Program-made: the position numbers and the translations under genes
The notes under the pieces: model-generated
Told to the model about the DNA's origin: nothing
The model's database searches: none
Seen by the model: the letters and a program-made list of their open reading frames with translations, nothing else
Assembly (NCBI RefSeq): GCF_030811115.1
Contig: NZ_JAUSQK010000001.1
Location: 248,001-312,000, forward strand
Reading direction: 5' to 3'
Source of the DNA: Olsenella profusa DSM 13989
GTDB lineage: Bacteria > Actinomycetota > Coriobacteriia > Coriobacteriales > Atopobiaceae
DNA length: 64,000 nt
Part shown: positions 1 to 15,329 of the stretch, piece after piece
Layout of the letters: every line of letters starts with the position of its first letter
How positions within the stretch are numbered: the first letter of the stretch is position 1

Positions 1-2474
1 TGGCCCTTGAGCGTGAAGATGGAGCCACGCTGGCTGCGCATGTTGAGCGCGTGGAACATCTCGACCATGGAGAGCGTGAGGAATGCCATGGTCATGCCCA
101 CGAGGCCCGCCTGGTCACTGGCAATCGCGTCGGCAAGCGAGACGCCTGCGGTCGAGATGCCGATGAAGTAGGCGGCCAACGTGAGCAGGGCGATGACGAC
201 GCCCTGAAAGATGGTGTCCGCACCCATGCCACCGGCGAAGATGCCGTCCTTGGCGTCGCGCGGCCTGCGGCGCATGATGTCAGCCTCGGCGCCCTCCGTT
301 GCCATGGCGAGCGCGGGCAGCGAGTCTGTGATGAGGTTGATCCACAGCAGGTGCGTGGGCTCCAGGATCGTGAAGCCGACGAGTGACGCCACGAACACCG
401 AGATGACCTCGGCCAGGTTGCTGGAGAGCAGGAACTGGATGCACTTGCGGATGTTGTCGTAGATGCGCCGGCCCTCTTCGACGGCACCGATGATGGTGGC
501 GAAGTTGTCGTCGGCCAGCACCATGTCGGCCACGTTTTTGGTGACGTCGGTGCCCGTGATGCCCATGCCGATGCCGATGTCCGCGCGCTTGATGGAGGGG
601 GCATCGTTCACGCCGTCGCCGGTCATGCCGACGACCTTGCCCTCACGCTTCCAGGCGTCGACTATGCGAGTCTTGTGCTCGGGCTGCACGCGGGCATAGA
701 CGCCAAAGTCCCTGATTCGGGCGGCAAGCTCGTCGTCTGACAGGCGGTCGAGCTCGGCGCCCATGATGGCCTGTGAGCGATCCCTCACGATGCCGAGCTC
801 CTTGGCGATGGCCACGGCGGTGTCAATGTGGTCGCCGGTGATCATGACCACGTGGATGCCTGCGGAGTGGGCCTCGTCTATGGCGGCCTTCACCTCGGGA
901 CGGACGGGGTCGATCATGCCGGAGAGGCCCACAAAGGTGAGGTCGTGCTCAAGGTAGTCGGGCTCAAAGCCCTTGGGCCTCTCGTCACCCCAGTCGCGGC
1001 GGGCCGCGGCCATCACGCGCAGGGCCCTGTCGGCCATGGCCTTGTTGGCCTCCATGACCTGCGAGCGCAGCTCATCGGTCATGGGCACGATGCCATCCTG
1101 CGAGAGGTACTTGGTGCAGCGGGAGAGCACCACGTCGGGGCCGCCCTTGGTATGCTGCATGTAGCCGTCCTTGCCGCGGACGACCACGGACATCATCTTG
1201 CGGCCGGAGTCAAACGGCGCCTCGCCCACGCGCGGGCGGCTCTGGGCCAGATGCGCCGTGCTGAAGCCCAGCTTGGCGGCATCGGCCACAAGCGCGGCCT
1301 CGGTCGGCTCGCCCACCGCGGCATCCGCGGTGTCGTCCCACCTGGCGTCGGAGGCCAGGGCCATGGTGCGCACCTGGCTCGTGAGGTTCTCGGTAAAGTG
1401 GTCGACGACGGTCATCTTGTTCTGCGTGAGCGTACCCGTCTTGTCCGAGCAGATGATCTGCGTGCAGCCCAGGGTCTCCACAGCGGAGAGCCTGCGAATG
1501 ATGGCGTGGCGCTCACTCATCTTGGTGACGCCCATGGAGAGCACGATGGTGACGACGGCCACCAGGCCCTCGGGGATGGCGGCCACGGCAAGCGCCACGG
1601 CGACCATGAAGGTATTGAGCACGAGATCGAGGTTGGTGATGAAGCCAGACCCATACCTGAAGAAGCCTGTGAGGAACACGATGGCGCAGATGGTGACGAC
1701 GAGGATGGTGAGGATGTGGGAGAGCTCGTTGAGCCTCGCCTGCAGCGGGGTCTCCTCGTCCTGTGCCTCGGCGATGGCGCCGGCGATCTTGCCCATCTCG
1801 GTCTGCATGCCCGTCGCCACGATCACGGCACGGCCACGGCCAAAGACCACGGTGGAGCCCATGTAGCACATGTTCTTGCGGTCGCCGAGGGGAATGTCGT
1901 CCGCGCCCTCCTCGAGGGTGATGACGTCAGCGTGCTTGGTGACGGGAACGGACTCGCCGGTAAGCGCCGCCTCCTCGACCTTCATGGACGCGCTCTCGAG
2001 GACGCGGCAGTCGGCCGGCACGGAGTCGCCAGCCTCGAGGATCACGATGTCGCCAGGAACGAGGTCCTGGGAGTGAACCTCGACCTGCTTGCCGCCGCGA
2101 ATGACCTTGGAGGTTGCCGCCGCCATCTCCTGCAGGGCCGCCAGGGCCTCCTCGGACTTGGCCTCCTGCACGACGCCCAGCACCGAGTTGAGGATGACGA
2201 CGAACAGGATGATGATCACGTCGGCGAAGTCCGCCTCGCCCTGCGCCACGCTCGTTGCCGCCGAGATGACCGCAGCCACGATGAGCATGATGACCATGGG
2301 ATCGCCCATCTGCTGGAAGAAGCGGATCCAGAGCGGGGTCTTCTCGGCCTCCTTGAGCCTGTTGGGGCCGTTCTGCCTGAGTAGTTCCTCGGCGACACCG
2401 GCACCAAGGCCCTGCTTGGCATCGGTTGCGCACTCCTCGAGCACGTCCGACGCGCTTACCAGATACTCTCTCAC
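1..2474 (-). CDS. Calcium-transporting P-type ATPase (C-terminus cut by window edge)
   Basis: Membrane cation pump of the SERCA/PMCA-like P2 family, expected to export Ca2+ (or a similar cation) with ATP. About 824 residues are in the window; family members are usually about 880-910, so only the last membrane helices are missing. Visible landmarks are the cation-ATPase N-terminal region (NGPNRLKEAEKTP), the actuator motif LTGESVPV, the helix-4 motif AIPEGL, the phosphorylation motif DKTGTLT with Asp344, the KGGPD segment of the nucleotide domain, and the hinge motif TGDGVNDAP at 618-626. The start is GTG at 2474, preceded by AGGAGG eight bases upstream. The family is certain; ion specificity is inferred from motifs. 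Confidence 0.93.
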   Translation of the reverse strand, partial: MREYLVSASDVLEECATDAKQGLGAGVAEELLRQNGPNRLKEAEKTPLWIRFFQQMGDPMVIMLIVAAVISAATSVAQGEADFADVIIILFVVILNSVLGVVQEAKSEEALAALQEMAAATSKVIRGGKQVEVHSQDLVPGDIVILEAGDSVPADCRVLESASMKVEEAALTGESVPVTKHADVITLEEGADDIPLGDRKNMCYMGSTVVFGRGRAVIVATGMQTEMGKIAGAIAEAQDEETPLQARLNELSHILTILVVTICAIVFLTGFFRYGSGFITNLDLVLNTFMVAVALAVAAIPEGLVAVVTIVLSMGVTKMSERHAIIRRLSAVETLGCTQIICSDKTGTLTQNKMTVVDHFTENLTSQVRTMALASDARWDDTADAAVGEPTEAALVADAAKLGFSTAHLAQSRPRVGEAPFDSGRKMMSVVVRGKDGYMQHTKGGPDVVLSRCTKYLSQDGIVPMTDELRSQVMEANKAMADRALRVMAAARRDWGDERPKGFEPDYLEHDLTFVGLSGMIDPVRPEVKAAIDEAHSAGIHVVMITGDHIDTAVAIAKELGIVRDRSQAIMGAELDRLSDDELAARIRDFGVYARVQPEHKTRIVDAWKREGKVVGMTGDGVNDAPSIKRADIGIGMGITGTDVTKNVADMVLADDNFATIIGAVEEGRRIYDNIRKCIQFLLSSNLAEVISVFVASLVGFTILEPTHLLWINLITDSLPALAMATEGAEADIMRRRPRDAKDGIFAGGMGADTIFQGVVIALLTLAAYFIGISTAGVSLADAIASDQAGLVGMTMAFLTLSMVEMFHALNMRSQRGSIFTLKG

Positions 2475-2859: not shown

Positions 2860-3348
2860 CTATCCCTCGTCCCAGAACTCGTCCGTGAGGATCTTGAAGC
2901 AGACCTTCCTGATGGCGACAGGCTCCGTCGTGGCACAGATGACGTTGGGCATATGCGGCTCGTGAGCCACGAAGATGGCAAAGTGGCGCTTCTCGAGCGT
3001 GCCCTCGATCTCATCGCCGTTGTCGGGAGCAGCCTTCACATACTGTTTGTCGGATGTCTCGTCGTACTCCCCGAGCGGCTCGGTGGGGCCGGACGTCACG
3101 AAAAAACGCTCGGCACCCTCGATGTCCACCTGCAAGTCCATATATCGACGGTGCACCTCGTAGCGCGCAGTGCCATACGTACGCGTCTTGGCATCCTGCA
3201 CGAGAGCGAACACCTTGTCCCCCAGGATCTCGTGCGGGCCCGTCTCGAGCTTCCGGCACTCGTGCTCGCCCAGCCAGTCGATGAGAACGTCCAGGCCCTT
3301 GTATAGGCCCCGGTACCGTTCGATGACGCCCATGCCATCGTAGATCAT
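2860..3348 (-). CDS. YhcH/YjgK/YiaL (DUF386) family protein
   Basis: A 162-residue single cupin-like domain of the YhcH/YjgK/YiaL family. Characterised relatives act on sialic acid or other sugar anomers (NanQ-type anomerases), and family members usually sit in sugar-acid or sialic-acid catabolic operons. Family features include the metal-site segment around ARYEVHRRYMDLQVDIEG and the C-terminal VAHEPHMPNV histidine pair. The start is ATG with AGGGG upstream. It is the last gene of the operon, 12 bases after the sialidase-like gene. The family is secure. The substrate is not known, and the neighbours argue for an uncommon acid sugar rather than plain Neu5Ac. Confidence 0.85.
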   Translation of the reverse strand: MIYDGMGVIERYRGLYKGLDVLIDWLGEHECRKLETGPHEILGDKVFALVQDAKTRTYGTARYEVHRRYMDLQVDIEGAERFFVTSGPTEPLGEYDETSDKQYVKAAPDNGDEIEGTLEKRHFAIFVAHEPHMPNVICATTEPVAIRKVCFKILTDEFWDEG

Positions 3349-3360
3349 GTCAATCCCCTC

Positions 3361-4548
3361 TCACGATGTGTGGCTGTTGGCTTCCTCGTGTGCCCCCACG
3401 TCACCCGACGTGGGGTTGTATGTGCTCTCACCGCGCCTCTCGCCCATGACGTCAGCCTCGGAGAGCGTCACCCACTTCACACCCCTACGGGTCTCATAGG
3501 CATAGGCGAGGTGAATCATCCCGTCGGCGGCCTGGATGACGCAGGGGTACTCGTACTGCAGGTTGTTGGCCTTGTTCTCGTCGCCCACGTAGCCCTGGCC
3601 GCGCTCGATGTGACGGATGAGCGGGAAGGTCCTGCCGCCATCCTCGGAAAGCGCAATGGAGACGGGACAGCGCAGTCCCGGCCAGGCGCCCTTCTGGCCA
3701 TAGGCCTGGGGTGCACTGGAGTGATTGTGCGCCACGGCGATACGACCGCTCGTGAGTTTGATGGCGCAGATGCCCGAGTTGTTGTTGGGGAGCACCGTGG
3801 GCTCGGGAACGATCCAGGTGTCGCCGTAGTCGAAGGACTCGCTGCGATAGATCCAGTCGGCCTGCCGCGAGCGCATGAAGGCGACGAGGTGGCCCGCATC
3901 GAGCTCTACGACCGTGGGGTGCACACGCCCCGCGGAGCTGGGCACCATCACCTGACGCCAGCTGGCACCCTCGTCATCCGAGATCTGGAAGGCAGAGGGG
4001 TCGCCGGCCAGCGCCGCAGCGGAGTCCGTGCACAGCCAGTTGCCGTAGATCCAACGGCCGTTGGAGAGAACCTGGATGGCCTGGCGGTTGAAGGTGCCCG
4101 GCTCGGCGAAGACGACCTCGGGCTCCGACCACGTCCGACCATCGTCGGTCGAGATCTGCCGCTTCACCTGAGCCGTGTACTGCATGTTGTCCTTACCCGG
4201 CTGACGGCCCAGCTGGGAGGTGTACATGCACCAGATCTCGCCGTTCGGCGCCAGGAACAGCGAGGGGTTCTGGTCCGAGCGATCGTCGTCATGGCTGACG
4301 TAGGTGGGCTCGCTCCAGCGATCGGAGCCCTTCTCCAGACGGGAGATCACGATGTTGATGTCGATGTCGCCCTCGTAGGTGCCGGCGAACCAGCAGCACA
4401 GGATGGTGCCTGTAGGCGTCTCCAGAAGCCCAGGGCCATGAGCCGTGGTCCAGGGGCCGGGGCTGACGAACGCCTCGGTCAGCCTCATCTCGGAGTCGTA
4501 GTACACCTGGCCATCGGGAGTCAGCCTTTCGAGCGTCTTGATTGCCAT
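3361..4548 (-). CDS. Sialidase-like BNR beta-propeller protein, probably cytoplasmic
   Basis: A 395-residue sialidase-superfamily (BNR/Asp-box) protein with Asp-boxes at about 133-140 (STDDGRTW), 190-197 (SDDEGASW) and about 300 (SEDGGRTF). No signal peptide is visible, so it should act inside the cell on an imported substrate. Classical sialidases carry an R-I-P motif near the N-terminus. The equivalent stretch here reads AHGPGLLETPTG and lacks that arginine, so true sialidase activity is doubtful. The gene is translated from ATG behind AAGGAGG and lies between the permease and the YhcH gene. It could be an exo-sialidase or a propeller hydrolase or lyase acting on another acidic sugar. Confidence 0.75.
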   Translation of the reverse strand: MAIKTLERLTPDGQVYYDSEMRLTEAFVSPGPWTTAHGPGLLETPTGTILCCWFAGTYEGDIDINIVISRLEKGSDRWSEPTYVSHDDDRSDQNPSLFLAPNGEIWCMYTSQLGRQPGKDNMQYTAQVKRQISTDDGRTWSEPEVVFAEPGTFNRQAIQVLSNGRWIYGNWLCTDSAAALAGDPSAFQISDDEGASWRQVMVPSSAGRVHPTVVELDAGHLVAFMRSRQADWIYRSESFDYGDTWIVPEPTVLPNNNSGICAIKLTSGRIAVAHNHSSAPQAYGQKGAWPGLRCPVSIALSEDGGRTFPLIRHIERGQGYVGDENKANNLQYEYPCVIQAADGMIHLAYAYETRRGVKWVTLSEADVMGERRGESTYNPTSGDVGAHEEANSHTS

Positions 4549-4634
4549 AGTGCCTCCTTCTGAAAGGACGGGGAGGGCTGGGCAGGTACGGCCCTCCTGG
4601 GCGGACGGTCGGGAGTCACGCTCCCCCTCCCCGC

Positions 4635-5927
4635 CTACGCAGGGAAGACGAGCAGGGCCCCGGCCGTCAGGAAGACCAAGCGCACAAAGTACTGCGGAAT
4701 CGTGAACTTCCAGAACTCAGGCATGGTGTACTTGCCCATGCCATAGGCCATGGCGGGCAGGCCATCGATGGGCATGTAATGGCCACACCAGGCCGAGAGC
4801 GTGACGGCAACGGCAGCGGCCATGGGATTGATGCCCAGGCCCTGACAAACCGAGATGGCCAGGGGGGCAAAGATCATGACCATACCCACCTGCGAGCCCG
4901 TAAAGCAGGCGAACGTGGAACAGATGAGGGCAAAGACGAACACGATCACAAAGGCAGGCACGCCCGTGCCCAGAGCATCGGCCACGACATTGCCGACGAG
5001 GGTGGAGAGACCCGTGTCCGCAAGGCAGTTTGCCACGGGGATGACGCCCGCGGTCATGAGAATGATGGGTGAGAACAGGTTGTCACGGAACTCCCCGAAG
5101 TCGACGACCTTGGCGATGACCATCGCGAAGGCACAGATACCTGGAATGATGTAGGAGAGGACTCCGATGACGTTGACGAGCATCATGGAGACGATGGCGA
5201 CGATGAACGCGAGGGTGGTGATGGTCTCCTGGGCCCTGCTCAACGTAGAGCCGCCCTCCTCAAGGGCCTCCCTGTTCTCGATCGTGGGCTCGGCCACGGG
5301 GTGAGAGGGCAGGAACCTATAGCCAATGATGGCCCAGAGCAAAAAGCCTATGGACAGGATGAAGGACACGATACCAAACTGCACCATGGACAGGCTGTTG
5401 GCGCTCAGGCCAGAGGCGCCCAGGACGGCAATGGCCACGCCGTACTGGAGGGCGACGTTGATGGGCACGAGCGGGTGATTGGATGCGATGCCCAACGGAA
5501 GCATGAGCTTCGAGCCCGGGAGCTTCTCGTTGTAGGGCATGGTCACGACGAGCGAGAAGATGAGCACATAGAACGCCGTCGAACCCATGCCGACCACCGA
5601 GGCACCGAGCATGACCACGATCAGCAGCAGCACATAGCTCTTGAACCCGCCCCTATTGACCAGTGCGGTCATGGCGTCCTTGACTTTGTTGATGATGGAG
5701 GTCTTCTGTATTGCCGCAAGGATCACCATGAAGAACGCCAACATCCATACCGTCGAGTTCGTGAAGCCGGCAAAGGAGTAGGCAATCGGGTCCTCACCCC
5801 CCAGGCCAAACACGACAATCAGGAGGCAAGCCGCGATGGGCGATAGGCCGAACGGAAGCACGTCGAACATGATCATGAGGATCATGGCGACGAGAACGAC
5901 CAGCGCGAGGATCATTGCCGTAGTCAT
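4635..5927 (-). CDS. SLC13/ion-transporter-superfamily permease
   Basis: A 430-residue integral membrane protein with about 11-12 hydrophobic helices. It resembles SLC13/DASS and related ion-transporter-superfamily carriers of dicarboxylates and other organic anions. Repeat-like halves include FAGFTNSTVWMLAFF near the N-terminus and the later FTGSQVGMVMIFAPLA and LSAWCGHYMPIDGLPAMAYG. It is the only transporter in the operon and is presumably the importer of the acidic substrate. ATG follows AAGGAG. The 138-base gap before it contains a small hairpin (arms 5981-5986 and 5993-5998) that may tune permease expression. Substrate is unknown; it is probably a carboxylated sugar. Confidence 0.75.
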   Translation of the reverse strand: MTTAMILALVVLVAMILMIMFDVLPFGLSPIAACLLIVVFGLGGEDPIAYSFAGFTNSTVWMLAFFMVILAAIQKTSIINKVKDAMTALVNRGGFKSYVLLLIVVMLGASVVGMGSTAFYVLIFSLVVTMPYNEKLPGSKLMLPLGIASNHPLVPINVALQYGVAIAVLGASGLSANSLSMVQFGIVSFILSIGFLLWAIIGYRFLPSHPVAEPTIENREALEEGGSTLSRAQETITTLAFIVAIVSMMLVNVIGVLSYIIPGICAFAMVIAKVVDFGEFRDNLFSPIILMTAGVIPVANCLADTGLSTLVGNVVADALGTGVPAFVIVFVFALICSTFACFTGSQVGMVMIFAPLAISVCQGLGINPMAAAVAVTLSAWCGHYMPIDGLPAMAYGMGKYTMPEFWKFTIPQYFVRLVFLTAGALLVFPA

Positions 5928-6065
5928 TCTGCTACTCCTTTCTCTTTACCTGCCGCCATCTTCGTGACAGCAGATCCCTACGCGGGACGCTCCCCGCGCT
6001 CTTCTCGAACCGAATTGGTTGTGGCAATAGTCGCGCGATGCCAGATGGCGCCGTGCGACCCGTGG

Positions 6066-7133
6066 CTATCTGCCTGTCTGCACTGCCCTCCCAGCGGCCA
6101 TACGCAGTGCGTAGTCGATGGCGTTCATGAGCGAGAGCTCGCTCGCGGTCCCCGTGCTGACTAGGTCGAAGCCCGTGCCGTGGTCCACGGAGGTGCGGAT
6201 GATGGGCAGGCCCAGGGTGACATTCACGCCCTCGACGGCCCGCCACCTCCCCTTGTCGCGGTCGTACACGAAGCCCAGGAGCTTGGTGGGGATGTGTCCC
6301 TGGTCGTGGTACATGCACACCGTGATGTCAAACCAGCCGCCGTTCATCTCGGAGAAGACGGTGTCGGGCGGGATGGGCCCGACGGCCTCGATACCCTTGG
6401 CCTTGGCCGCCTCGATGGCCGGGATGATCTCCTCGATCTCCTCGGTGCCGAAGAGGCCATGCTCCCCCGCATGGGGATTGAGGCCGGCGACGGCCACCTT
6501 GGGACCCTCGATGCCCAGGTCGCGGCAGGCGGCATCCGCCAGCTCGATGACCTCGAGCACGCGATCCCTCCTCACGCGGTCGCAGGCCTCGCGCAGACTC
6601 ACGTGCGTGGACACGTGGATGACGCGGAAGTCATGGTGGGCGAGCATCATGGCGTAGCGCTTGGTGTGCGTGTAGGTGGCATAGATCTCGGTGTGGCCGT
6701 CAAAGCGCATGCCCTCGGGCGCAAGCGCCAGGTTCATGGCCTCCTTGTTGAGGGCGTTGGTCACCGTGGCGTCGATCTCGCCGTCCATGGCCAGCTCGAT
6801 GACCTTCCTTACGCTCTGGAAGGCGGCCATGCCACCCTCGGCAGAGACCTCGCCCAGCTTGAAGCTAGCGACGTCCTTCACCAGGTCCAGGTGGTACACG
6901 TCGATGATGCCAGCCTCGAACTTCGCGTCGGCAACGCTCTCGACGGGCCTCACCTTGATCTCGGGATGCCCGACGAAGCCCTTGGCCTGCTCGATCATCT
7001 TTGCGTCGCCCACCACCAGGGGTCGGCAGCGCTCATAGAGCGCGGCATCCGCCAGCGCCTTCACGGTGAGCTCGGGACCGTTGCCCGCGGGGTCACCCAT
7101 GGTGATGCCAACGATTGGTCTTGTGCCAGCCAT
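6066..7133 (-). CDS. pdxA2: PdxA2-like 4-phospho-threonate/erythronate dehydrogenase
   Basis: A 355-residue member of the PdxA family. The usual metal-binding histidine regions are visible (FDGHTEIYA, VIHVSTHVSL, YHDQGHIP), with the GLPIIRTSVDHGTGFD motif near the C-terminus. PdxA2 proteins paired with DUF1537 kinases oxidise 4-phospho-D-threonate or 4-phospho-D-erythronate with NAD, giving dihydroxyacetone phosphate and CO2. The DUF1537-type kinase two genes upstream makes this catabolic role more likely than pyridoxal phosphate synthesis. The start ATG overlaps the stop of the upstream aldolase gene by one base (TAATG). The exact stereochemistry of the substrate cannot be read from the sequence. 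Confidence 0.85.
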   Translation of the reverse strand: MAGTRPIVGITMGDPAGNGPELTVKALADAALYERCRPLVVGDAKMIEQAKGFVGHPEIKVRPVESVADAKFEAGIIDVYHLDLVKDVASFKLGEVSAEGGMAAFQSVRKVIELAMDGEIDATVTNALNKEAMNLALAPEGMRFDGHTEIYATYTHTKRYAMMLAHHDFRVIHVSTHVSLREACDRVRRDRVLEVIELADAACRDLGIEGPKVAVAGLNPHAGEHGLFGTEEIEEIIPAIEAAKAKGIEAVGPIPPDTVFSEMNGGWFDITVCMYHDQGHIPTKLLGFVYDRDKGRWRAVEGVNVTLGLPIIRTSVDHGTGFDLVSTGTASELSLMNAIDYALRMAAGRAVQTGR

Positions 7134-8026
7134 TACTCGATGCCCCTCTGCTTGTCCTCGGCGAGTGCCGTGCGCAGGGCGGCAAGCCCCTCCTCGGAGA
7201 GCTGGTTGAACGGGGCGCGGCACCTGCCCACGGGGAAGCCCAGCTCTCTCACGGCAAACTTCACGACGGTGTTGGGGTTGCCGTACTTGAACACGCTGCG
7301 CAGGTTGGCCACGTTGTCCTGGCACTGCTGGGCGGCGTCGAGGTCGCCCTTCACGAAGTTCTCGTAGATGCCCACCATGTTCTTGGGATACACGTTGGCA
7401 CAGCCGGCGATGGAGCCCTTCGCGCCCTCCTTGAGGGCCCTGAGGATGAGGGCGTCGTTACCGGAGAGCACGGCGAAGTCCTTGTTGCGGGTGAGGTCGA
7501 TGTAGGCCTTGAGGTTGTCCCAGTCACCCGAGGAGTCCTTGGCGCCCACGATGTTGTCCACCTCGGAGAGCTTGGCCACGGTGGCGGGCTCGAGGGCGTT
7601 GCCGGTGCGCATGGGGATGTTGTAGAGCACGATCGGCAGGTCCACGGCAGCGGCCACGGCCTCGTAGTGGGCCTGAAGCTCGGCCTGGCTGGCCTTGGCG
7701 AAGCTCGGGGTGATGATGGAGAGCACGTCGGCGCCCAGGTCGGCAGCCATCTTGGACTGCTCGATGGTCTCCTTGGTGGAGACGCAGCCGGTGCCGGCGT
7801 ACACGGGCACGCGGCCGGCGACCTGGTTGATCACCGTCGCGAGGACGAGCATCTTGTCCTCCTTGTCGAGGATGTAGCCCTCGCCGTTGGTGCCAAAGCA
7901 GAAGATGGCGTGGATGCCGGCCTCGATCTGGCGATCCACCTGGCAGCGCAGCTCCGCCGTGTTGACGGTCTCGTCCTCCCTGAACGGCGTGACGATGGGA
8001 ACGATGATGCCCTTGATGCCTGCCAT
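7133..8026 (-). CDS. DapA/NanA-family class I aldolase
   Basis: A 297-residue TIM-barrel aldolase of the dihydrodipicolinate synthase/N-acetylneuraminate lyase superfamily. It has GTNGE at 45-49, Tyr135 in YNIPMRTG and the Schiff-base Lys163 in GAKDSSGD. The DapA triad tyrosine normally found in the TPYY segment is replaced (TPSF), and the operon is catabolic, so lysine biosynthesis is unlikely. A 2-keto-3-deoxy sugar acid, cleaved to pyruvate plus an aldehyde, is a reasonable substrate class. Its ATG directly abuts the TAG of the upstream kinase-dehydrogenase gene. The superfamily is certain; the substrate is inferred. Confidence 0.88.
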   Translation of the reverse strand: MAGIKGIIVPIVTPFREDETVNTAELRCQVDRQIEAGIHAIFCFGTNGEGYILDKEDKMLVLATVINQVAGRVPVYAGTGCVSTKETIEQSKMAADLGADVLSIITPSFAKASQAELQAHYEAVAAAVDLPIVLYNIPMRTGNALEPATVAKLSEVDNIVGAKDSSGDWDNLKAYIDLTRNKDFAVLSGNDALILRALKEGAKGSIAGCANVYPKNMVGIYENFVKGDLDAAQQCQDNVANLRSVFKYGNPNTVVKFAVRELGFPVGRCRAPFNQLSEEGLAALRTALAEDKQRGIE

Positions 8027-10411
8027 CTACCTCAGCAACCTCTCGTAGATCGCGCGTGCGTCCTCAGCGGTGACCTCACGCATGTTGTTCACGAGCAGCC
8101 GCTGCTGCTGCATGCCTGCCTCCACGAGGCCCTCGAGGTCCTCGGGCTTGACGCCAAACTCCTTGAGATCGGTGGGGATGTCCAGGTCGCGCACGATGTC
8201 ACCGATCCGGTCGAGGAGGGCGCGGGACTTCTCCCCCTCTGTGGAGAGGACCTTGTCACCGTGGTGGGCGCGATCCCAGGCCTGCGCGAACTTGGTGCGG
8301 CAGGCGGGCTCGTTGAACTCCAGGACGGGCAGGAACATCATGGCGATGGAGACGCCGTGGGCCATGTGGTACTTGCCGCCCAGCGGATAGGCCAGGCCGT
8401 GCACGGCCGTGGTGCCCGAGGCCGTGATGGCGATGCCGCCGTAGAAGGCGCCAATCTGCATCCGGTTCTTCTCGACAATGGCGTCCTCGTCGTCGCAGGC
8501 CCTCATGATGTTGTTCATGATGATGTCAAGGCCCTCGAGCGCGAAGGTGTCGCTCATGGGGTTGGCCTTCTTGGACGTGAGGCACTCGATGCAGTGCGCC
8601 AGGGCGTCCACGCCTGTGGTGGCGGCGATCTTGCGCGGGAGGTTGCGGATCATCTCGGCGTCGAGGATCACGTAGTCGGGAACCATGTTGTCGTTGACGA
8701 TGCCGATCTTGGTCTCCTGCTCCGGCACGGCCACGATGGCATTGGGGGTGCACTCGGCGCCGGTGCCGGCCGTGGTGGGGATGGCGAGCAGGGGTGCGCA
8801 CTTCCTGGCGCGACCGGGATCGGAGAGTAGGTCCTTCACGCCGTACGCGTCGGTGTCGAGCACGCTGGCGAGCTTGGCGGCGTCCATCACGGAGCCGCCG
8901 CCACAGGCGATGATGAAGTCCGCCCCAGTGCTGCGGAACTGGTCGACCGTGGCCTGGGCCGCCTCGTAGGTGGGCTCGGGCATGAGGTCGTCGAAGACCT
9001 CGCATACCAGACCGGCGGCCTCAACCTGCTTGGCCACCAGGTCAAAGAGGCCGAGTGACCGGATGGACCCGTCCGTGAAGGCAGCGACTTTGGTAGCTCC
9101 TGCCCCCTTGAGAATGGCGGGAATCCTCCCGAGGGAATTGGCACCGCTATAGACCGCATGTGGCAGCTTGAGGCTGTACGCATCCACTGGCATGGCTGAG
9201 ACCTCCTGTTTCTCGACCAGGTACTGCTGGACTTGCATGAGTAGATCGTCCGCGCCAAAGGCACCGGACTTGGTGATGAGGTAGCGCTCGCGACCGGCGT
9301 CCTCGAAGCGCGCGAGCACGACGCCGGGCAGAATCTCCTCCATGGGCTCGAGCGTCCTGATGCCCATGGCGGTCATGAGGCTTGCAAGCGTGTCGCCACC
9401 GATAACCATCAGCGTGCGGCCGCCATCCTCCAGCACCTCGCGAGCAATGCGTCCCATGGCCTGGTTGATGGCTTGTGAGGGATGGATGCGGCGTTCGAAG
9501 AGCGCCGCCTCGCAGAAGTCAAGCGTGTCGAGAAGGGCGAGGGGCGCGCCTTGGGCCACCCGGACGAAGTCTCGTGCGAGCTGGATGGCATCGCGCTCGC
9601 ACCAGGAACCCGAGAGCACGGGGGCGAGCGGCAGATGCATACGGGGCGCACCATGGGCCTCAATGAAATCCAGCTGGGAACGGGTGACCGCGTTGACCGA
9701 GCCGGAGAGCACCGACAGCTTGGGACTCAGCCTCGTGCATACAGGCACATATGCGGGCGTGCTCGACTGGCGTGGATAGGTCTCCAGGAAGCCGGCACAG
9801 CCCGCCACAAGCACCAGGTCGTCAGCCTCGGCAAGCCTGCGCCCGATGCGTGCGAGGCCCTCGTCGCTGTCGCAGTCGAACACGTCCACCCCAGGCTTGA
9901 GCGCGCTGCCATCGCACGGGCTCACGGCGACATCGCTCTCCAGGTGGATGAGCTCGTCGATGCGGCTTGTGGCGACCGGGTCGATGGGATCTGTGGCAAA
10001 GACGCTCTGCGCAAGGGGCCTGCCGTCCACATACTGGACCAGGCCCTTGGTCACGCGGCCCATCTTGGGGTAGGCGGGGACGAAGTCGATGTGGTCGCGC
10101 CCCGAGGCCGCAAGGGCCGCGGCGATCTCGGCACCCACGTTGCCGCGCAGGCCCGAGTCCACCTTCTTGTAGATGCGAGTCACACCATGGGCGCACGCCG
10201 TCGAGACGAGCTCGAAGACGGTACGGTACGCCTCGTCCGAGGAGGCGTGACGAGTCTCGGCATCGATGACAAGCACGTCGTAATCGTCAAGCAGGGCCAC
10301 ATCCATGGTCGGGTCCGCAGACACCGCCACACGGTCACCCTTGCGAGCGAGCTGCACACCAGAATCCAAGGCCCCCGTAAGGTCATCGGCTATGACGAGC
10401 AGACCAATCAC
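8027..10411 (-). CDS. Four-carbon acid sugar kinase (DUF1537) fused to iron-containing alcohol dehydrogenase
   Basis: One open frame of 794 codons. Residues 1 to about 406 form a DUF1537 acid-sugar kinase (ADDLTGA near the N-terminus, KKVDSGLRGN, GSVNAVTRSQ, VIGGDTLASL, ITKSGAFG). These enzymes phosphorylate D-threonate or erythronate-type acids. From residue 407 on is a complete type III iron alcohol dehydrogenase (CGGGSVMDAAK, TGVDALAHCIE, VHGLAYPLGG and the following His). The start is GTG at 10411 behind GGAGGTG; earlier ATGs lack a ribosome site. At the junction an in-frame ATG (9191-9193) carries a perfect AGGAGG eight bases upstream, so the 388-residue dehydrogenase may also be made alone. 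It is the first gene of the operon. Confidence 0.88.
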   Translation of the reverse strand: MIGLLVIADDLTGALDSGVQLARKGDRVAVSADPTMDVALLDDYDVLVIDAETRHASSDEAYRTVFELVSTACAHGVTRIYKKVDSGLRGNVGAEIAAALAASGRDHIDFVPAYPKMGRVTKGLVQYVDGRPLAQSVFATDPIDPVATSRIDELIHLESDVAVSPCDGSALKPGVDVFDCDSDEGLARIGRRLAEADDLVLVAGCAGFLETYPRQSSTPAYVPVCTRLSPKLSVLSGSVNAVTRSQLDFIEAHGAPRMHLPLAPVLSGSWCERDAIQLARDFVRVAQGAPLALLDTLDFCEAALFERRIHPSQAINQAMGRIAREVLEDGGRTLMVIGGDTLASLMTAMGIRTLEPMEEILPGVVLARFEDAGRERYLITKSGAFGADDLLMQVQQYLVEKQEVSAMPVDAYSLKLPHAVYSGANSLGRIPAILKGAGATKVAAFTDGSIRSLGLFDLVAKQVEAAGLVCEVFDDLMPEPTYEAAQATVDQFRSTGADFIIACGGGSVMDAAKLASVLDTDAYGVKDLLSDPGRARKCAPLLAIPTTAGTGAECTPNAIVAVPEQETKIGIVNDNMVPDYVILDAEMIRNLPRKIAATTGVDALAHCIECLTSKKANPMSDTFALEGLDIIMNNIMRACDDEDAIVEKNRMQIGAFYGGIAITASGTTAVHGLAYPLGGKYHMAHGVSIAMMFLPVLEFNEPACRTKFAQAWDRAHHGDKVLSTEGEKSRALLDRIGDIVRDLDIPTDLKEFGVKPEDLEGLVEAGMQQQRLLVNNMREVTAEDARAIYERLLR
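9191..9207 (-). promoter_or_regulatory. Internal Shine-Dalgarno and ATG inside the kinase-dehydrogenase ORF
   Basis: AGGAGG (complement of 9202-9207) lies eight bases before an in-frame ATG (complement of 9191-9193). The ATG starts MPVDAYSLKLPHAVYSG, a natural iron-alcohol-dehydrogenase N-terminus. This is stronger than the site of the outer start and suggests independent translation of the second domain. Confidence 0.6.
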
Positions 10412-10481
10412 GTGCTGCACCTCCATCCACGGAAAAGTATGGGCCACCGTCACCGATGCCCCAAGGCTTCCTAATCCAGGA

Positions 10482-10502
10482 AACGTTCCTATTTGAAACG
10501 TT
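10482..10502. promoter_or_regulatory. Candidate operator 1 of the divergent regulator
   Basis: A near-palindrome with arms AACGTT(T)C and G(A)AACGTT, centred near 10492 in the 182-base gap between the kinase operon and the regulator. Its complement matches the second dyad at 14 of 19 aligned positions (shared GTTTC...GAAC). A weak -35-like TTGAAA for the regulator (10494-10499) overlaps it. Confidence 0.5.
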
Positions 10503-10529
10503 ACAGGACAGCCATGATGAATTTCTCGT

Positions 10530-10554
10530 AGTATGTTTCTAAATAGAACATACT
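10530..10554. promoter_or_regulatory. Candidate operator 2 of the divergent regulator
   Basis: A 25-base dyad with arms AGTATGTTTCTA and TAGAACATACT (one unpaired T) around a central AA. Its centre is about 50 bp (five helical turns) from operator 1. It lies 40 bp upstream of the regulator start, so autoregulation or divergent control is likely. Confidence 0.55.
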
Positions 10555-10593
10555 CTAGGGGCATCCGATCTGGGGTATGGGAGGTGTGGACAT

Positions 10594-12465
10594 ATGATGC
10601 CATCACGCGCAGCGTCAGACGGAATCTTGGAGAGGAACATGGTCTGCACGGACGCACGGGGGGTGCGCATACTCGCCATCGCGCCCTACCAGGGACTTGC
10701 GATCGCCCTCAGGCGCGTCGCCGACGAGTATGCGAATGTGGGCCTCACCTGCATCGTGGGCAACCTCTCGGCCGGCGTCACCGCAGCCCAAGAGCAGGTC
10801 TCCGCAGGCAATGCCTACGATGTCATCATCTCTCGCGGCGGCACGGCCGACCTCCTGCGCGAGAGCTTCAGCCTTCCCGTCATCGACATCCCGGTCAGCG
10901 CCTACGACGTGCTACAGGCCATCAAGCTCTCCGAAGGGCTCAAGGGACGGCGCGCCGTCGTGGGCTTTACGGCCATCACCCAGACGGCCGACACGCTCAA
11001 CGAGATCATGCAGCTTGGCCTCGACATCTTCACGCTCGTGGACACCGACGACGTCAGTACGGTCATGGGATTCCTCGTGGAGAACGACTACCAGATCATC
11101 CTCTGTGACGTCATCTCGGCCTCGGCGGCACGGGATGCGGGACTCAATCCCGTGCTCATCACCTCGGGCGGCGCATCGATACGGCAGGTGTTTGACGAGG
11201 CCCTCAGACAGACTAGGTACCTGCGCCACTACAGCAGTGAGAACGCGCTGCTGCGTACCGTCATCAACCGCCAGCCACAACGCTGCGCGATCTTTCGCAA
11301 GGACGGGTCGCTCATGCTGGGCACCTACCAGACGGACGATGGGGTCATGGCATACCTGCGAGGCATCGTCAACGAGGTCATGGCGGGGGACGTGCGGGTC
11401 GTGCGCAAGTCGTTGGGTGGCACACTCTGGACGATTCGCGGCGAGAGGGTCTCCACCAGCGCCATCCCCCACAATGACTTCTGCGCCTTCTACTTCACGG
11501 GCACACGCGCCACCCCCAAGCGGCGGCGCGCAGGCATGAGCTCCTTCTCAAGGACCGAGGCGACCAAGGCCTATGACAGGAGCCTCTATGCCCTCACGAG
11601 TGACATCGGACGCATCTCGGCGACGATCGACAACTCGAACCAGACGGGGCAGCCCCTCCTCATCACGGGCGAGTACGGAACGGGCAGGACGGCTGTCGCC
11701 CTCTACGCCTACATCCATGGCCTCCATGCCGACATGCCCCTCACGGAGGTCGACTGCGGCATGATGACCGACTCCTCGCGCGACTTCCTCGTCAACAGCT
11801 CGCGCTCGCCCCTCTACACGCGACATGAGGTCATCCACATCAAGAACTTCAACAGCTCCGACGAGGGGTTCCTGGACAGCCTCTTCTCCACCATCGCGCA
11901 GACGGGCGTGTGCGAGCGCAACCGCGTCATCTTCTCATGCGACCCACACGGCGAGCACGTGCACAGGCGCATCGCCTATCTCAAGGACAAGTTCCAGTGC
12001 GTCGAAGTCCAGCTCATCGCCCTGCGCGAACAGCCAGAACGTGTGGCTCCGCTCACCAGCCTCTACCTCAGCCAGCTGAGAAGCGAGCTGCCCAACGAGG
12101 TCCTGCGCATAGATGGTGCCGCCATGCGACTGCTCGGTGAGTACGCCTGGCCGGGCAACCTCGTGCAGATGGAGCGCATCATACGACAGCTCTACCTCTC
12201 GGCGGTCGATCATGTGATTCGCACCGTGGATGTGCGCAGCGCGCTCGCCCTCGAACGAACCACCTATCCCCAGGGCCCAACGGGACAGGACGTCACGCAG
12301 GCGTCCTCCGCCCATGCACCCACGGACATGTCCGGTCTCACGTTGGCCCAGGTTGACCGCCTTGCCGTGGAGGACGCCGTGCGCCGCAACGGCGGCAACC
12401 AGAGTGCCGCCGCGCGCGAGCTGGGCATCAGCCGCACGACACTCTGGCGCATCCGTAGGCGGTAG
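10594..12465 (+). CDS. PrpR/NtrC-like transcriptional regulator with degenerate AAA domain
   Basis: A 623-residue protein with four parts. Residues about 15-195 resemble the PrpR N-terminal sensor domain (RILAIAPYQGLAI...DVIISRGGTADLL). A PAS-like stretch covers about 215-310. An AAA-like domain covers about 325-545. A Fis-type helix-turn-helix sits at the end (NGGNQSAAARELGISRTTLWR). The AAA part is degenerate: Walker A is GEYGTGRT near 359-366 with Arg for Lys, the Walker B region reads VIHIKNFNS, and no GAFTGA loop is present. It therefore probably does not remodel sigma-54 and instead binds DNA as a simple ligand-responsive regulator. ATG follows GAGGTG seven bases upstream. It faces the acid-sugar operon, its likely target. 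Confidence 0.85.
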   Translation: MMPSRAASDGILERNMVCTDARGVRILAIAPYQGLAIALRRVADEYANVGLTCIVGNLSAGVTAAQEQVSAGNAYDVIISRGGTADLLRESFSLPVIDIPVSAYDVLQAIKLSEGLKGRRAVVGFTAITQTADTLNEIMQLGLDIFTLVDTDDVSTVMGFLVENDYQIILCDVISASAARDAGLNPVLITSGGASIRQVFDEALRQTRYLRHYSSENALLRTVINRQPQRCAIFRKDGSLMLGTYQTDDGVMAYLRGIVNEVMAGDVRVVRKSLGGTLWTIRGERVSTSAIPHNDFCAFYFTGTRATPKRRRAGMSSFSRTEATKAYDRSLYALTSDIGRISATIDNSNQTGQPLLITGEYGTGRTAVALYAYIHGLHADMPLTEVDCGMMTDSSRDFLVNSSRSPLYTRHEVIHIKNFNSSDEGFLDSLFSTIAQTGVCERNRVIFSCDPHGEHVHRRIAYLKDKFQCVEVQLIALREQPERVAPLTSLYLSQLRSELPNEVLRIDGAAMRLLGEYAWPGNLVQMERIIRQLYLSAVDHVIRTVDVRSALALERTTYPQGPTGQDVTQASSAHAPTDMSGLTLAQVDRLAVEDAVRRNGGNQSAAARELGISRTTLWRIRRR

Positions 12466-12645: not shown

Positions 12646-12755
12646 CATAGCGGAACAGAGCCCAGTTCCCCTCACAATTTCTGCGCAACCAGCGCCATCG
12701 CGTTAGAATGAGGGTAGGCGTTGCGTATTGGCAGTCCACGTATGGAGGGACGATC

Positions 12756-13763
12756 ATGAAGATTCTTGTGTTTGGCACCAAGAGCTATGACAAGGCCTCG
12801 TTCGAGAAGGAGCTGAAGGACTATCCCGACCTCCAGGTAGACTTCACGGAAATCAACCTCACCCCGCTCACGGCCCCCCTCGCCCAGGGATACAAGGCCG
12901 TCTGCGGCTTTGTGAATGCCGACGTCTCCGCCATGACGCTCGAACTGCTGCGCGGCCTGGGCGTCGAGCTCGTCCTCATGCGCTGCGCCGGCTTCGATGC
13001 CGTCAACGTCGACTTCGCCAAGTCCATCGGCATGCGGGTCACCCGTGTCCCGGCCTACTCGCCCGAGGCCATCGCCGAGCACGCCATGGCCCTCGCCCTC
13101 TGTGCCAACCGCCACATCCACAAGGGCTACATCCGCGTCCGTGAGAACGACTTCTCGCTCGAGGGCCTTGTGGGCACCACCCTGCACGGCAAGACGGCCG
13201 GCATCATCGGCACGGGCCGCATCGGTGCCGCACTCTGCCGCATCTGCAAGGGCTTCGGCATGACGGTCCTGGGTTCCGACCTCTACCCCAACCAGAAGCT
13301 CATCGACGAGGAGCACGTCATTGACGAGTACGTCGACTACGACGAGCTCTATAGCCGCGCCGACCTCATCAGCCTGCACGCCTTCCTCAACGAGGACAGC
13401 TACCACCTGATCAACGACGAGTCCATCGCAAAGATGAAGGACGGCGTGATCTTCGTCAACACCAGCCGCGGTGCGCTCGTCGACACCGAGGCCCTCATCC
13501 GTGGCATCCGTGCGGGCAAGATCGGCGCGGCGGGCCTCGACGTCTACGAGGAGGAGAACGCCAACGTCTACCAGAACCGCGAGGACCAGATCCTTGGCCA
13601 TTCCGTCACCGCGCGCCTCTGCTCCTTCCCCAACGTGGTCATGACCTCCCATCAGGCCTTCTTCACACACGAGGCACTGGGCCAGATTGCCCGCGTCACG
13701 CTCGACAACGCCGAGGCGTATGCAAACGGTAAGGATTTCGTCGATCGCAGCGTCGTGTGCTAG
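12756..13763 (+). CDS. ldhA: D-lactate dehydrogenase (NAD-dependent D-2-hydroxyacid dehydrogenase)
   Basis: A 335-residue cytoplasmic enzyme reducing pyruvate to D-lactate with NADH. It has an NAD-binding GTGRIGAALCRICKGFG motif near 150, the substrate-pocket segment LMRCAGFDAVNVD, the NTSRGALVDTEAL block with its catalytic-loop arginine nearby, and the catalytic-histidine region MTSHQAFFTHEAL. Length and motifs match LdhA-type D-lactate dehydrogenases. The start is ATG at 12756 behind GGAGGG; the frame stays open upstream to 12708 but without a ribosome site. Pyruvate kinase follows in the same direction 123 bases on, consistent with coordinated homolactic-type fermentation. Confidence 0.92.
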   Translation: MKILVFGTKSYDKASFEKELKDYPDLQVDFTEINLTPLTAPLAQGYKAVCGFVNADVSAMTLELLRGLGVELVLMRCAGFDAVNVDFAKSIGMRVTRVPAYSPEAIAEHAMALALCANRHIHKGYIRVRENDFSLEGLVGTTLHGKTAGIIGTGRIGAALCRICKGFGMTVLGSDLYPNQKLIDEEHVIDEYVDYDELYSRADLISLHAFLNEDSYHLINDESIAKMKDGVIFVNTSRGALVDTEALIRGIRAGKIGAAGLDVYEEENANVYQNREDQILGHSVTARLCSFPNVVMTSHQAFFTHEALGQIARVTLDNAEAYANGKDFVDRSVVC

Positions 13764-13831
13764 GCAAAGCCCTATCCTCGATAAGGCTTCCGCCAGCAAG
13801 CACACCACGGGTGGAATACACGAGAGCATCC

Positions 13832-13860
13832 GGCTGGCCGGCCCCTTGGGCCGGCCAGCC
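13832..13860 (+). terminator. Strong hairpin between ldhA and pyk
   Basis: A perfect 12-bp stem (13832-13843 with 13849-13860, GGCTGGCCGGCC) around a five-base loop. It is followed by only two T residues, so it may be a weak terminator, an attenuator or an mRNA-stabilising element rather than a full terminator. It lies 26 bases before the pyk start. Confidence 0.6.
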
Positions 13861-13886
13861 TTAGAACGGAGAAGGGAACGACCGGT

Positions 13887-15329
13887 ATGACCAACAAGAG
13901 AACCAAGATCATCTGCACAATGGGTCCTGCCACGGAGAGCGATGACGTCCTGCGCCAGCTCATCGCGAGTGGCATGAACGTGGCGCGCTTCAACTTCAGC
14001 CACGGCAGCCACGACTACCACCGCAACAACATCGACCGCGTGCGGCGCATCTCTGCCGAGCTGGGCATGCCCGTGGCCATCATGCTGGACACCAAGGGTC
14101 CCGAGGTTCGCACCGGCGAGCTGAAGGATCACCAGAAGGTCATGCTAAAGACCGGCGGCACGACCGTCGTCACCACCGATGACGGCGTCATCGGCACCGC
14201 CGAGCGCTTCTCGCTGGACTACAAGGAGCTTCCCAACGAGGTCGAGAAGGGTTCCATCATCCTGATCGACGACGGCCTCATCGGCCTGGAGGTCGATCAC
14301 GTCGAGGGCACCGACATGCACTGCGTCATCACCAACGGTGGCGAGCTGGGAGAGAAGAAGGGCGTCAACGTCCCCAACGTGGAGGTGGGCCTGCCCTCCG
14401 TCACCGAGCAGGACAGGGCCGACATCATGTTCGGCTGCGAGCTGGGCATTGACGCCATTGCCGCGTCCTTCATCCGCAACGGTGCCGCCGTGGACGAGAT
14501 TCGCGAGCTGTGCGCCGAGAACGGCCTGCGTAACCTCTACATCCTCCCCAAGATCGAGAGCGCCATGGGCGTCAGGAACTTCGACGAGATCCTCGAGCAC
14601 TCCGATGGCATCATGGTGGCCCGCGGCGATCTGGGCGTGGAGATCAACCCCGCCGAGGTGCCCCACGTGCAGAAGACGATCATCAAGAAGTGCAACAAGG
14701 CCTACAAGCCCGTCATCACCGCAACGCAGATGCTCGATTCCATGATCCACAACCCGCGCCCCACGCGCGCCGAGGTCGCAGACGTTGCCAATGCCATCTA
14801 TGACGGCACCGACTGCATCATGCTCTCCGGCGAGACCGCTGCCGGCCAGTACCCCGTCGAGGCCGTCAGGATGATGGCCTCCATCGCCGAGGAGACCGAG
14901 AAGTACCTGCCGGAGACCGGCGAGTACCATGACCGTGGCGGCCTGAAGAACGTGAACTCCGCCATCGGCGCCGCTGCCGTCGAGGTTGCCGATCGCGTGA
15001 ATGCCAAGTGCATCATCTGCCCGACGCACTCTGGCCGCACGGCTCGCCTGATCTCCAACTTCCGCCCCAAGCTGCCCATTTATGCGATGTCGCCCTCCAA
15101 CCACGCCATCCGCAAGACCTGCTTCCAGTGGGGCGTGCAGGCCATCAAGACCACCGAGCAGGGATCGCTCTCGGCCACCTGCTACAACGCCCTGACTGTG
15201 GCCAAGGAGAGGGGTGTCGTCAAGACGGGTGACCTCGTGGTCATCACTGCCGGCGACCCTCAGACCTCGCCCTCCCAGGGTGACTACATCACGTCCACCA
15301 ACATGGCGATGGTGTCGCAGATCCAGTAG
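13887..15329 (+). CDS. pyk: Pyruvate kinase
   Basis: A 480-residue glycolytic enzyme converting phosphoenolpyruvate and ADP to pyruvate and ATP. Standard features are the N-terminal KRTKIICTMGPA, the SHGSHDYHR nucleotide/K+ region, IMLDTKGPEVRTGE, the active-site block LPKIESAMGVRNFDEIL, MVARGDLGVE and ATQMLDSMIHNPRPTRAEVADVANA, then a C-terminal alpha/beta regulatory domain. No extra C-terminal PEP-utilising domain is present. ATG follows a GGAGAAGGGA stretch. Together with ldhA it forms the lower end of fermentation. Confidence 0.97.
   Translation: MTNKRTKIICTMGPATESDDVLRQLIASGMNVARFNFSHGSHDYHRNNIDRVRRISAELGMPVAIMLDTKGPEVRTGELKDHQKVMLKTGGTTVVTTDDGVIGTAERFSLDYKELPNEVEKGSIILIDDGLIGLEVDHVEGTDMHCVITNGGELGEKKGVNVPNVEVGLPSVTEQDRADIMFGCELGIDAIAASFIRNGAAVDEIRELCAENGLRNLYILPKIESAMGVRNFDEILEHSDGIMVARGDLGVEINPAEVPHVQKTIIKKCNKAYKPVITATQMLDSMIHNPRPTRAEVADVANAIYDGTDCIMLSGETAAGQYPVEAVRMMASIAEETEKYLPETGEYHDRGGLKNVNSAIGAAAVEVADRVNAKCIICPTHSGRTARLISNFRPKLPIYAMSPSNHAIRKTCFQWGVQAIKTTEQGSLSATCYNALTVAKERGVVKTGDLVVITAGDPQTSPSQGDYITSTNMAMVSQIQ

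Follow-up and report, generated by a model that had tools for sequence, protein, structure and literature searches.

A six-gene operon of Olsenella profusa DSM 13989 may encode a linear pathway that converts a seven-carbon (C7) 2-keto-3-deoxy-aldarate of the type of 3-deoxy-D-lyxo-hept-2-ulosaric acid (Dha) into pyruvate and dihydroxyacetone phosphate, a reading to which we assign a probability of about 0.4 and which draws on gene content, co-conservation, folds, active-site residues, and family assignments. The operon runs on the minus strand from 10426 to 2860 of a 64,000-nucleotide stretch of the genome (NZ_JAUSQK010000001.1, positions 248,001 to 312,000; hereafter the window) and faces a PrpR-like regulator on the plus strand. 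An earlier note made from the letters alone had described this arrangement, and family scans with curated models recovered every gene that it named, close to where it had placed them: a DUF1537 tetronate kinase fused in frame to an iron-containing alcohol dehydrogenase (Fe-ADH; 8027-10426; Pfam SBD_N, NBD_C, Fe-ADH, and ADH_Fe_C), a DapA/NanA-family pyruvate aldolase that we propose to be a 2-keto-3-deoxy-aldarate aldolase (7133-8026; Pfam DHDPS), a PdxA2-like 4-phospho-tetronate dehydrogenase (6066-7133; Pfam PdxA), a CitMHS-like anion transporter (4635-5927), a sialidase-fold protein (3361-4548; Pfam BNR_2; hereafter the propeller), and a YhcH-family protein (2860-3348; Pfam DUF386). The stop codon of the aldolase gene overlaps the PdxA start by one base, and the Fe-ADH stop directly adjoins the aldolase start.

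In the pathway that we propose, the CitMHS-like carrier would import the acid, possibly complexed with calcium that an adjoining P2A ATPase would then expel, and the propeller would free or reshape a ketosidic or cyclic form in the cytoplasm, followed by ring opening by YhcH. The aldolase would then cleave the open chain into pyruvate and D-threuronate, the Fe-ADH half of the fusion would use NADH to reduce D-threuronate to D-threonate, and the DUF1537 half would phosphorylate it to 4-phospho-D-threonate. Oxidation and decarboxylation by PdxA2 would finally yield dihydroxyacetone phosphate and CO2, and the pathway would be redox balanced because PdxA2 regenerates the NADH spent by the Fe-ADH. 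A bookkeeping script showed that only the D-lyxo and D-xylo forms among the eight 3-deoxy-hept-2-ulosarates yield D-threonate after cleavage and reduction, and Dha is given as D-lyxo in a passage of PMC12168206. The case for Dha itself is circumstantial: it is the one known sugar that fits in length, charge, and stereochemistry. The full proposal (catabolism of Dha with calcium-complex import, via D-threuronate and D-threonate to dihydroxyacetone phosphate, by a set shared among four phyla that would constitute a natural D-threonate source) is possible and more tentative. The earlier note had already suggested an aldolase split into pyruvate and a four-carbon aldehyde, conversion to a phospho-tetronate, and PdxA2 as the final step; this core idea is kept in part, with the direction of its dehydrogenase step reversed. 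Its broader view of a route for a larger acidic sugar other than N-acetylneuraminic acid (Neu5Ac), ending in DUF1537 and PdxA2, agrees with the conserved co-occurrence and the unmatched NanE described below. None of the open-licence papers listed in our literature searches described a pathway of this kind and, judged by its gene content, the system extends the D-threonate pathway and is widespread.

Lack of conservation outside this genome had been named as an outcome that would speak against the idea, but a search for co-occurrence of the families found the set to be widely conserved. Briefly, 93 loci were selected by propeller similarity, comprising the best 80 of 582 from propeller alignment in named bacterial genomes and 13 others, and genes were counted as together if they lay within the fetched stretch, with flanks of up to around 12 kb and not always in one operon. 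Many of these loci are short contigs, and we therefore distinguish 65 well-flanked ones, in which over 5 kb of sequence is available to either side of the propeller gene. All five core genes (kinase, dehydrogenase, aldolase, PdxA, and propeller) are together in 61 of these 65 and in 76 of all 93; given this proportion of the well-flanked loci, the five-gene set is not due to chance. Taken singly, the kinase was found in 80, the dehydrogenase in 81, the aldolase in 82, and PdxA in 79 of the 93 loci. The four exceptions among the 65 are L019 and L104, which have none of the core genes but the propeller, L021, where the kinase was not found, and L030, where PdxA was not found; the last two were rechecked by tblastn. 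The aldolase, first regarded as an extra to known DUF1537-PdxA2 pairs, is thus present as described and is not peculiar to this locus but part of a widespread set. The loci span four phyla (Coriobacteriia, Clostridia, Bacilli, Gamma-, Beta-, and Alphaproteobacteria, and one spirochaete), and gene order varies between them, which suggests selection for linkage rather than descent of one fixed block.

A first search in 60 genomes including that of O. profusa had found four others with a near-full-length propeller (74-86% identity) and the same neighbours, as well as two in which the match covered no more than 29 and 39 residues, respectively. Among 296 Coriobacteriia genomes, 12 contain the propeller at E ≤1e-40, counting the own genome and one remnant in the same species. 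Judging by record titles and sources, many of the bacteria with the cluster were sampled from the rumen, the gut, or plants, and the public records that we examined label the cluster proteins "exo-alpha-sialidase", "4-hydroxy-tetrahydrodipicolinate synthase", and "PdxA". Nine of 315 plasmid records were examined. A lead from rhizobial symbiosis, i.e., a four-carbon acid sugar kinase and DHDPS-family candidates on pSymB mentioned in an excerpt of PMC12904279, could not be tied to the cluster.

The substrate class is suggested by the aldolase (AlphaFold model with a predicted local distance difference test, pLDDT, of 94.7), which we compared among 81 cluster aldolases in E. coli DapA numbering, taking from each locus the frame most similar to that of the window. 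Tyr133 and the Schiff-base Lys161 are kept in all 81, Phe at 107 and Asn at 45 (Tyr107 and Thr45 in DapA) are each found in 78, and Arg138 is kept in 77, the protein of the window sharing every one of these residues. In DapA, Arg138 contacts the carboxylate group of the four-carbon aldehyde-acid substrate, aspartate semialdehyde, while the position is Leu in E. coli NanA, YagE, and YjhH, and its conservation in the clusters is pointing to a carboxylate-bearing aldehyde product. D-threuronate, expected from a C7 keto-aldarate, matches aspartate semialdehyde in chain length and carboxylate and, judging from these residues, would be held by the arginine. The enzyme exceeds the cut-off of the DapA model TIGR00674 (226.6 bits, cut-off 206.15) and stays below those of the nanA equivalog (135.5 of 382 bits) and PRK04147 (157.5 of 281). 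A role in lysine biosynthesis was ruled out since the genome has a separate DapA at 2.50 Mb among lysine-pathway frames (read as lysA, dapB, and dapD), so that the operon aldolase is not needed there. The E. coli D-xylonate route likewise uses a DapA-family aldolase to form pyruvate and an aldehyde, but its enzymes YagE and YjhH are only 31-33% identical to that of the window and lack Arg138, and that route has neither kinase nor PdxA2. In a known system that likewise pairs a DUF1537 kinase with an aldolase, phosphorylation precedes the aldolase step, whereas the pyruvate aldolase of the cluster would start the route and PdxA would end it. Both families are shared with that system, as portrayed in an excerpt of PMC10580937.

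The kinase and dehydrogenase form a protein of 799 amino acids in a single uninterrupted frame (around 411 N-terminal residues of kinase and 388 C-terminal residues of Fe-ADH) from an ATG at 10426, the start that we chose; with the mechanically assigned GTG at 10657, the frame would run into the regulator gene. The identical 799 residues (100% identity) are encoded without a stop in a second genome of this species (G210). No fusion occurs in the 93 related loci and no intact one in seven searched genomes of other species, two of which (G211 and G224) have kinase and dehydrogenase in one frame broken by a single TAG; the fusion therefore looks like a species-level event. The motif ADD[FL]TGA is found in only 59 of 78 cluster kinases. 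The pattern D-x3-H...H-x10-14-H, which we take to be the iron site, is present in all 79 dehydrogenase frames of more than 330 residues from the loci. Iron alcohol dehydrogenases interconvert aldehydes and alcohols and do not normally oxidize aldehydes to acids. Since the closest solved structures to the Fe-ADH of the window are moreover lactaldehyde reductases, this enzyme more plausibly reduces an aldehyde-acid to a tetronate than oxidizes an aldehyde, reversing the step as originally suggested. If so, the acid group would already have to be in the aldehyde, and a dicarboxylic C7 substrate would be required.

The end-steps of the proposed route correspond to the D-threonate pathway, in which DtnK is the D-threonate kinase of the DUF1537 family (in the portion of PMC10971088 consulted) and PdxA2 an enzyme of organic-acid catabolism (likewise for PMC9997740). 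Both families share one cluster in the window, and both kinase and PdxA exceed the NCBI D-threonate equivalog cut-offs in Klebsiella (L022) and Brenneria (L087), as does PdxA in Pantoea (L021). Among solved structures, the PdxA protein of the window is closest to 6e85, deposited as D-threonate 4-phosphate dehydrogenase, and to 4jqp and 2hi1, with scores of 283-288 bits as compared to at most 176 bits for the other 11 sequences listed; the PdxA motifs are present in 74 and 75, respectively, of 76 cluster PdxA proteins. What sets the cluster apart from the DtnK/PdxA2 pathway is the conserved presence of an aldolase, an Fe-ADH, and a protein with the sialidase fold, frequently joined by YhcH or a small glyoxalase-like protein.

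The predicted propeller model (pLDDT 87.1) has the GH33 sialidase fold, as superposition on the GH33 sialidase 1wcq gave a Z of 37.6 and a root-mean-square deviation of 2.2 over 316 residues. Alignments with NanC and a sialidase bound to 2-deoxy-2,3-didehydro-Neu5Ac (DANA) place His210 at the position of the catalytic Glu in all 94 propellers and, with an extrapolation of the alignment by two residues, His37 at that of the RIP-motif Arg in 93, with a gap in one. Tyr334, Arg226, and Arg293 are invariant across the 94 proteins; the Glu, arginine-triad, and Tyr positions are named by their roles in GH33 enzymes. A simple leader test detected a hydrophobic 15-mer before residue 25 in none of the 94. 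These features suggest that the propeller is an enzyme of the cytoplasm whose substrate would be the acid in a ketosidic, dehydrated, or cyclic form; the sialidase fold noticed at the outset is confirmed, while release of a sugar outside the cell is not supported. GH143 is the described Dha hydrolase; neither the solved-structure sequence searches nor the best 50 matches of each propeller fold search contained a recognisable GH143 entry, though the two may be linked.

YhcH passes TIGR00022 (89.2 bits against 45.5) and is below the cut-off of the Neu5Ac-anomerase model NF040884 (80.7 against 160). In the part of PMC8141875 available to us, YhcH is an anomerase that provides open-chain Neu5Ac to a DapA-family aldolase, and we propose that the protein of the window opens the ring of an ulosonate. 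YhcH is encoded in 29 of the 93 loci and a small protein of 115 residues (e.g., L074 7685-8032) in 31, with both only in L040 and neither in 34. This small protein shows weak glyoxalase-family matches below the cut-offs and may be an unrelated substitute for YhcH, possibly another anomerase. Fisher values for its distribution against YhcH, like those for the calcium exporters against the carrier (below), are uncorrected for relatedness among the loci.

The carriers differ between loci: the 93 include 47 with CitMHS/DASS-like carriers, 5 with SSS, 2 with MFS, and 13 with LplB-type ABC permeases, while others have TRAP or Opp-type ABC systems. The transporter of the window, initially described as an SLC13-like permease, is indeed a transporter, but it passes the CitMHS model (E 2.3e-17, over the gathering score), whereas its DASS match is below the cut-off. 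CitMHS carriers move metal complexes. On the same strand, YhcH is followed by a P2A (calcium-type) ATPase gene (1-2474, minus strand), a probable functional neighbour, which is cut by the window start and runs around 200 bases beyond it (the full frame is in L109); residues 1-823 are 72% identical to the ATPase beside the L010 cluster. At 25 of the 93 loci, a calcium exporter is encoded no more than 3 kb from a gene of the cluster (19 P2A ATPases and 6 calcium/sodium antiporters); 22 of these 25 have a CitMHS-like carrier, and all 8 further Coriobacteriia loci also have a P2A ATPase. Three ATPase genes have the opposite orientation, and some are cut short by the end of a contig. The two antiporters examined pass TIGR00367. 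For the two ATPases examined, the highest scores were obtained with calcium models but did not reach the cut-off, the best NCBIfam match of the L010 protein being a calcium PMR1-type one. We infer that the acid may be taken up as a calcium complex.

A natural replacement of the front end was found in G210, where window positions 3892-6087 (covering the carrier, the first 219 residues of the propeller, and the very end of PdxA) are exchanged for 3.65 kb (L130 9456-13104) in flanking DNA that is 99.3-99.6% identical to the window. The cassette encodes an MBL-fold protein, a carrier that matches CitMHS more strongly, and a D-2-hydroxyacid dehydrogenase, and the propeller persists as a C-terminal remnant. 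Since 2-hydroxyacid dehydrogenases can make 2-keto acids, the exchange is consistent with a different entry module that supplies the same aldolase. It also suggests that the later steps do not depend on the propeller, provided that the pathway still works in G210.

Accessory enzymes are also encoded at some loci. In 12 of the 93 loci, L012 (6561-8195) among them, one to three esterase-like genes lie in or near the cluster, and L054 has a further esterase gene belonging to the BD-FAE family. Sucrose-phosphorylase-like GH13 genes were found in five (L098 11243-12757, L099, L100, L102, and L104; the closest solved relative of the L098 protein is the sucrose phosphorylase 7qqj), two of which also have a PfkB kinase gene.

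Different readings of this gene set can be weighed against a linear Dha-type route. A linear pathway might instead degrade another C7 (or other) 2-keto-3-deoxy dicarboxylate, obtained from a plant small molecule or bacterial polysaccharide rather than from rhamnogalacturonan II (RG-II), to D-threonate or another tetronate. The D-xylo isomer fits equally well, and the esterases, the sucrose-phosphorylase-like genes, and the varied MFS, TRAP, ABC, and SSS carriers suggest varied conjugates; yet Dha fits both chain length and stereochemistry, no comparable compound that is common in plants is known to us, and we consider another substrate rather unlikely. Somewhat similarly unlikely is a two-branch scheme in which the propeller would split a conjugate of a tetronate and a 2-keto-3-deoxy acid: the tetronate would reach dihydroxyacetone phosphate via kinase and PdxA2, while the other half would be cleaved to pyruvate and an aldehyde that is reduced to a waste alcohol. 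The E. coli D-xylonate route, where a small aldehyde is reduced to an alcohol, is the model for this scheme, with which the lactaldehyde reductase-like dehydrogenase and the resemblance of the aldolase to YagE and YjhH agree, and co-conservation does not separate it from a linear route. It requires, however, an unnamed conjugate, the conserved Arg138 (Leu in YagE and YjhH) speaks for a carboxylate on the aldehyde, and the replacement of the propeller in G210 with the rest kept is easier to explain if it precedes a linear pathway.

Ordinary use of free D-threonate with the remaining genes as passengers would agree with DtnK being described as a D-threonate kinase (in the excerpt of PMC10971088) and with the cluster members that pass D-threonate cut-offs, but is very unlikely given that, among loci chosen by propeller, aldolase, dehydrogenase, and propeller are as constant across phyla as kinase and PdxA. 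Slightly less probable still is a variant pathway for Neu5Ac, 2-keto-3-deoxynononic acid (KDN), or 3-deoxy-D-manno-oct-2-ulosonic acid (KDO), with the propeller as sialidase, the aldolase as neuraminate lyase, and YhcH as Neu5Ac anomerase. Sialidase fold, YhcH family, and DHDPS family all match this idea, and the order of YhcH and then a DapA-family aldolase is that of sialic-acid operons with NanA, YhcH/NanQ, and sialidase (as far as the excerpt of PMC8141875 goes). In contrast to these operons, the cluster has no NanE match, non-NanA aldolase residues (Arg138 instead of Leu), an altered propeller site, and tetronate end-steps to which the C6 and C5 fragments left by C9 and C8 acids are unsuited. 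As had been claimed, NanE is absent, with no match in the 2.6-Mb genome (8 of 14 control genomes match, 6 of them over the cut-off; NanK and NagB were not searched for). Together with aldolase and YhcH scores below the respective cut-offs and the changed propeller residues, this led us to reject Neu5Ac use.

Several observations weigh against a linear Dha-type route. In L019 and L104, the propeller occurs without the other core genes, and the propeller family lacks two residues of the GH33 catalytic site (the Glu and the first Arg). Arg138 is missing in 4 of 81 aldolases, namely, L018 (Lys) as well as L020, L023, and L024 (Met or Val); the latter three are only 25-27% identical to that of the window, and their clusters may use a different aldolase. 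Neither the kinase nor the PdxA of the window reaches the equivalog cut-offs of the D-threonate pathway: the D-threonate kinase model is the best-scoring kinase model for the kinase half at 174.7 bits against 450, and the D-threonate model is second best for PdxA at 330.9 bits against 583. The same is true for kinase and PdxA of Succinivibrio L042. The GH13 genes would be left unexplained by Dha, and no RG-II glycosidase was recognised beside any locus, though no systematic search was made.

The regulator facing the operon (10594-12465, plus strand; Pfam PrpR_N and HTH_8) has a degenerate sigma-54 AAA domain, whose Sigma54_activat score of 19.7 bits is below the gathering score of 20.2, and the sigma-54 DNA-binding domain (PF04552) has no match in the genome, as compared to matches in 4 of 14 control genomes. 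Neither an intact interaction domain nor sigma-54, as expected for a PrpR-type sigma-54 activator, was thus found, and the protein probably acts with another sigma factor. Promoter and terminator scans gave no more sites than shuffled sequences. Genes for a D-2-hydroxyacid dehydrogenase and pyruvate kinase lie beside the cluster at window positions 12708-15329 and likewise at L013, L026, L028, and L131 (several Coriobacteriia).

The current names of the cluster proteins suggest sialic-acid, lysine, and vitamin B6 metabolism rather than a single pathway. The five-enzyme set is shared by bacteria as different as gut Coriobacteriia and Clostridia, rhizobia, and enterobacteria. If our proposal is true, it would show how bacteria use a C7 keto-aldarate such as Dha, which is among the rarest plant cell-wall sugars, would tie the breakdown of pectin RG-II to cross-feeding in gut and rhizosphere, and would explain a natural source of D-threonate for DtnK and PdxA2.

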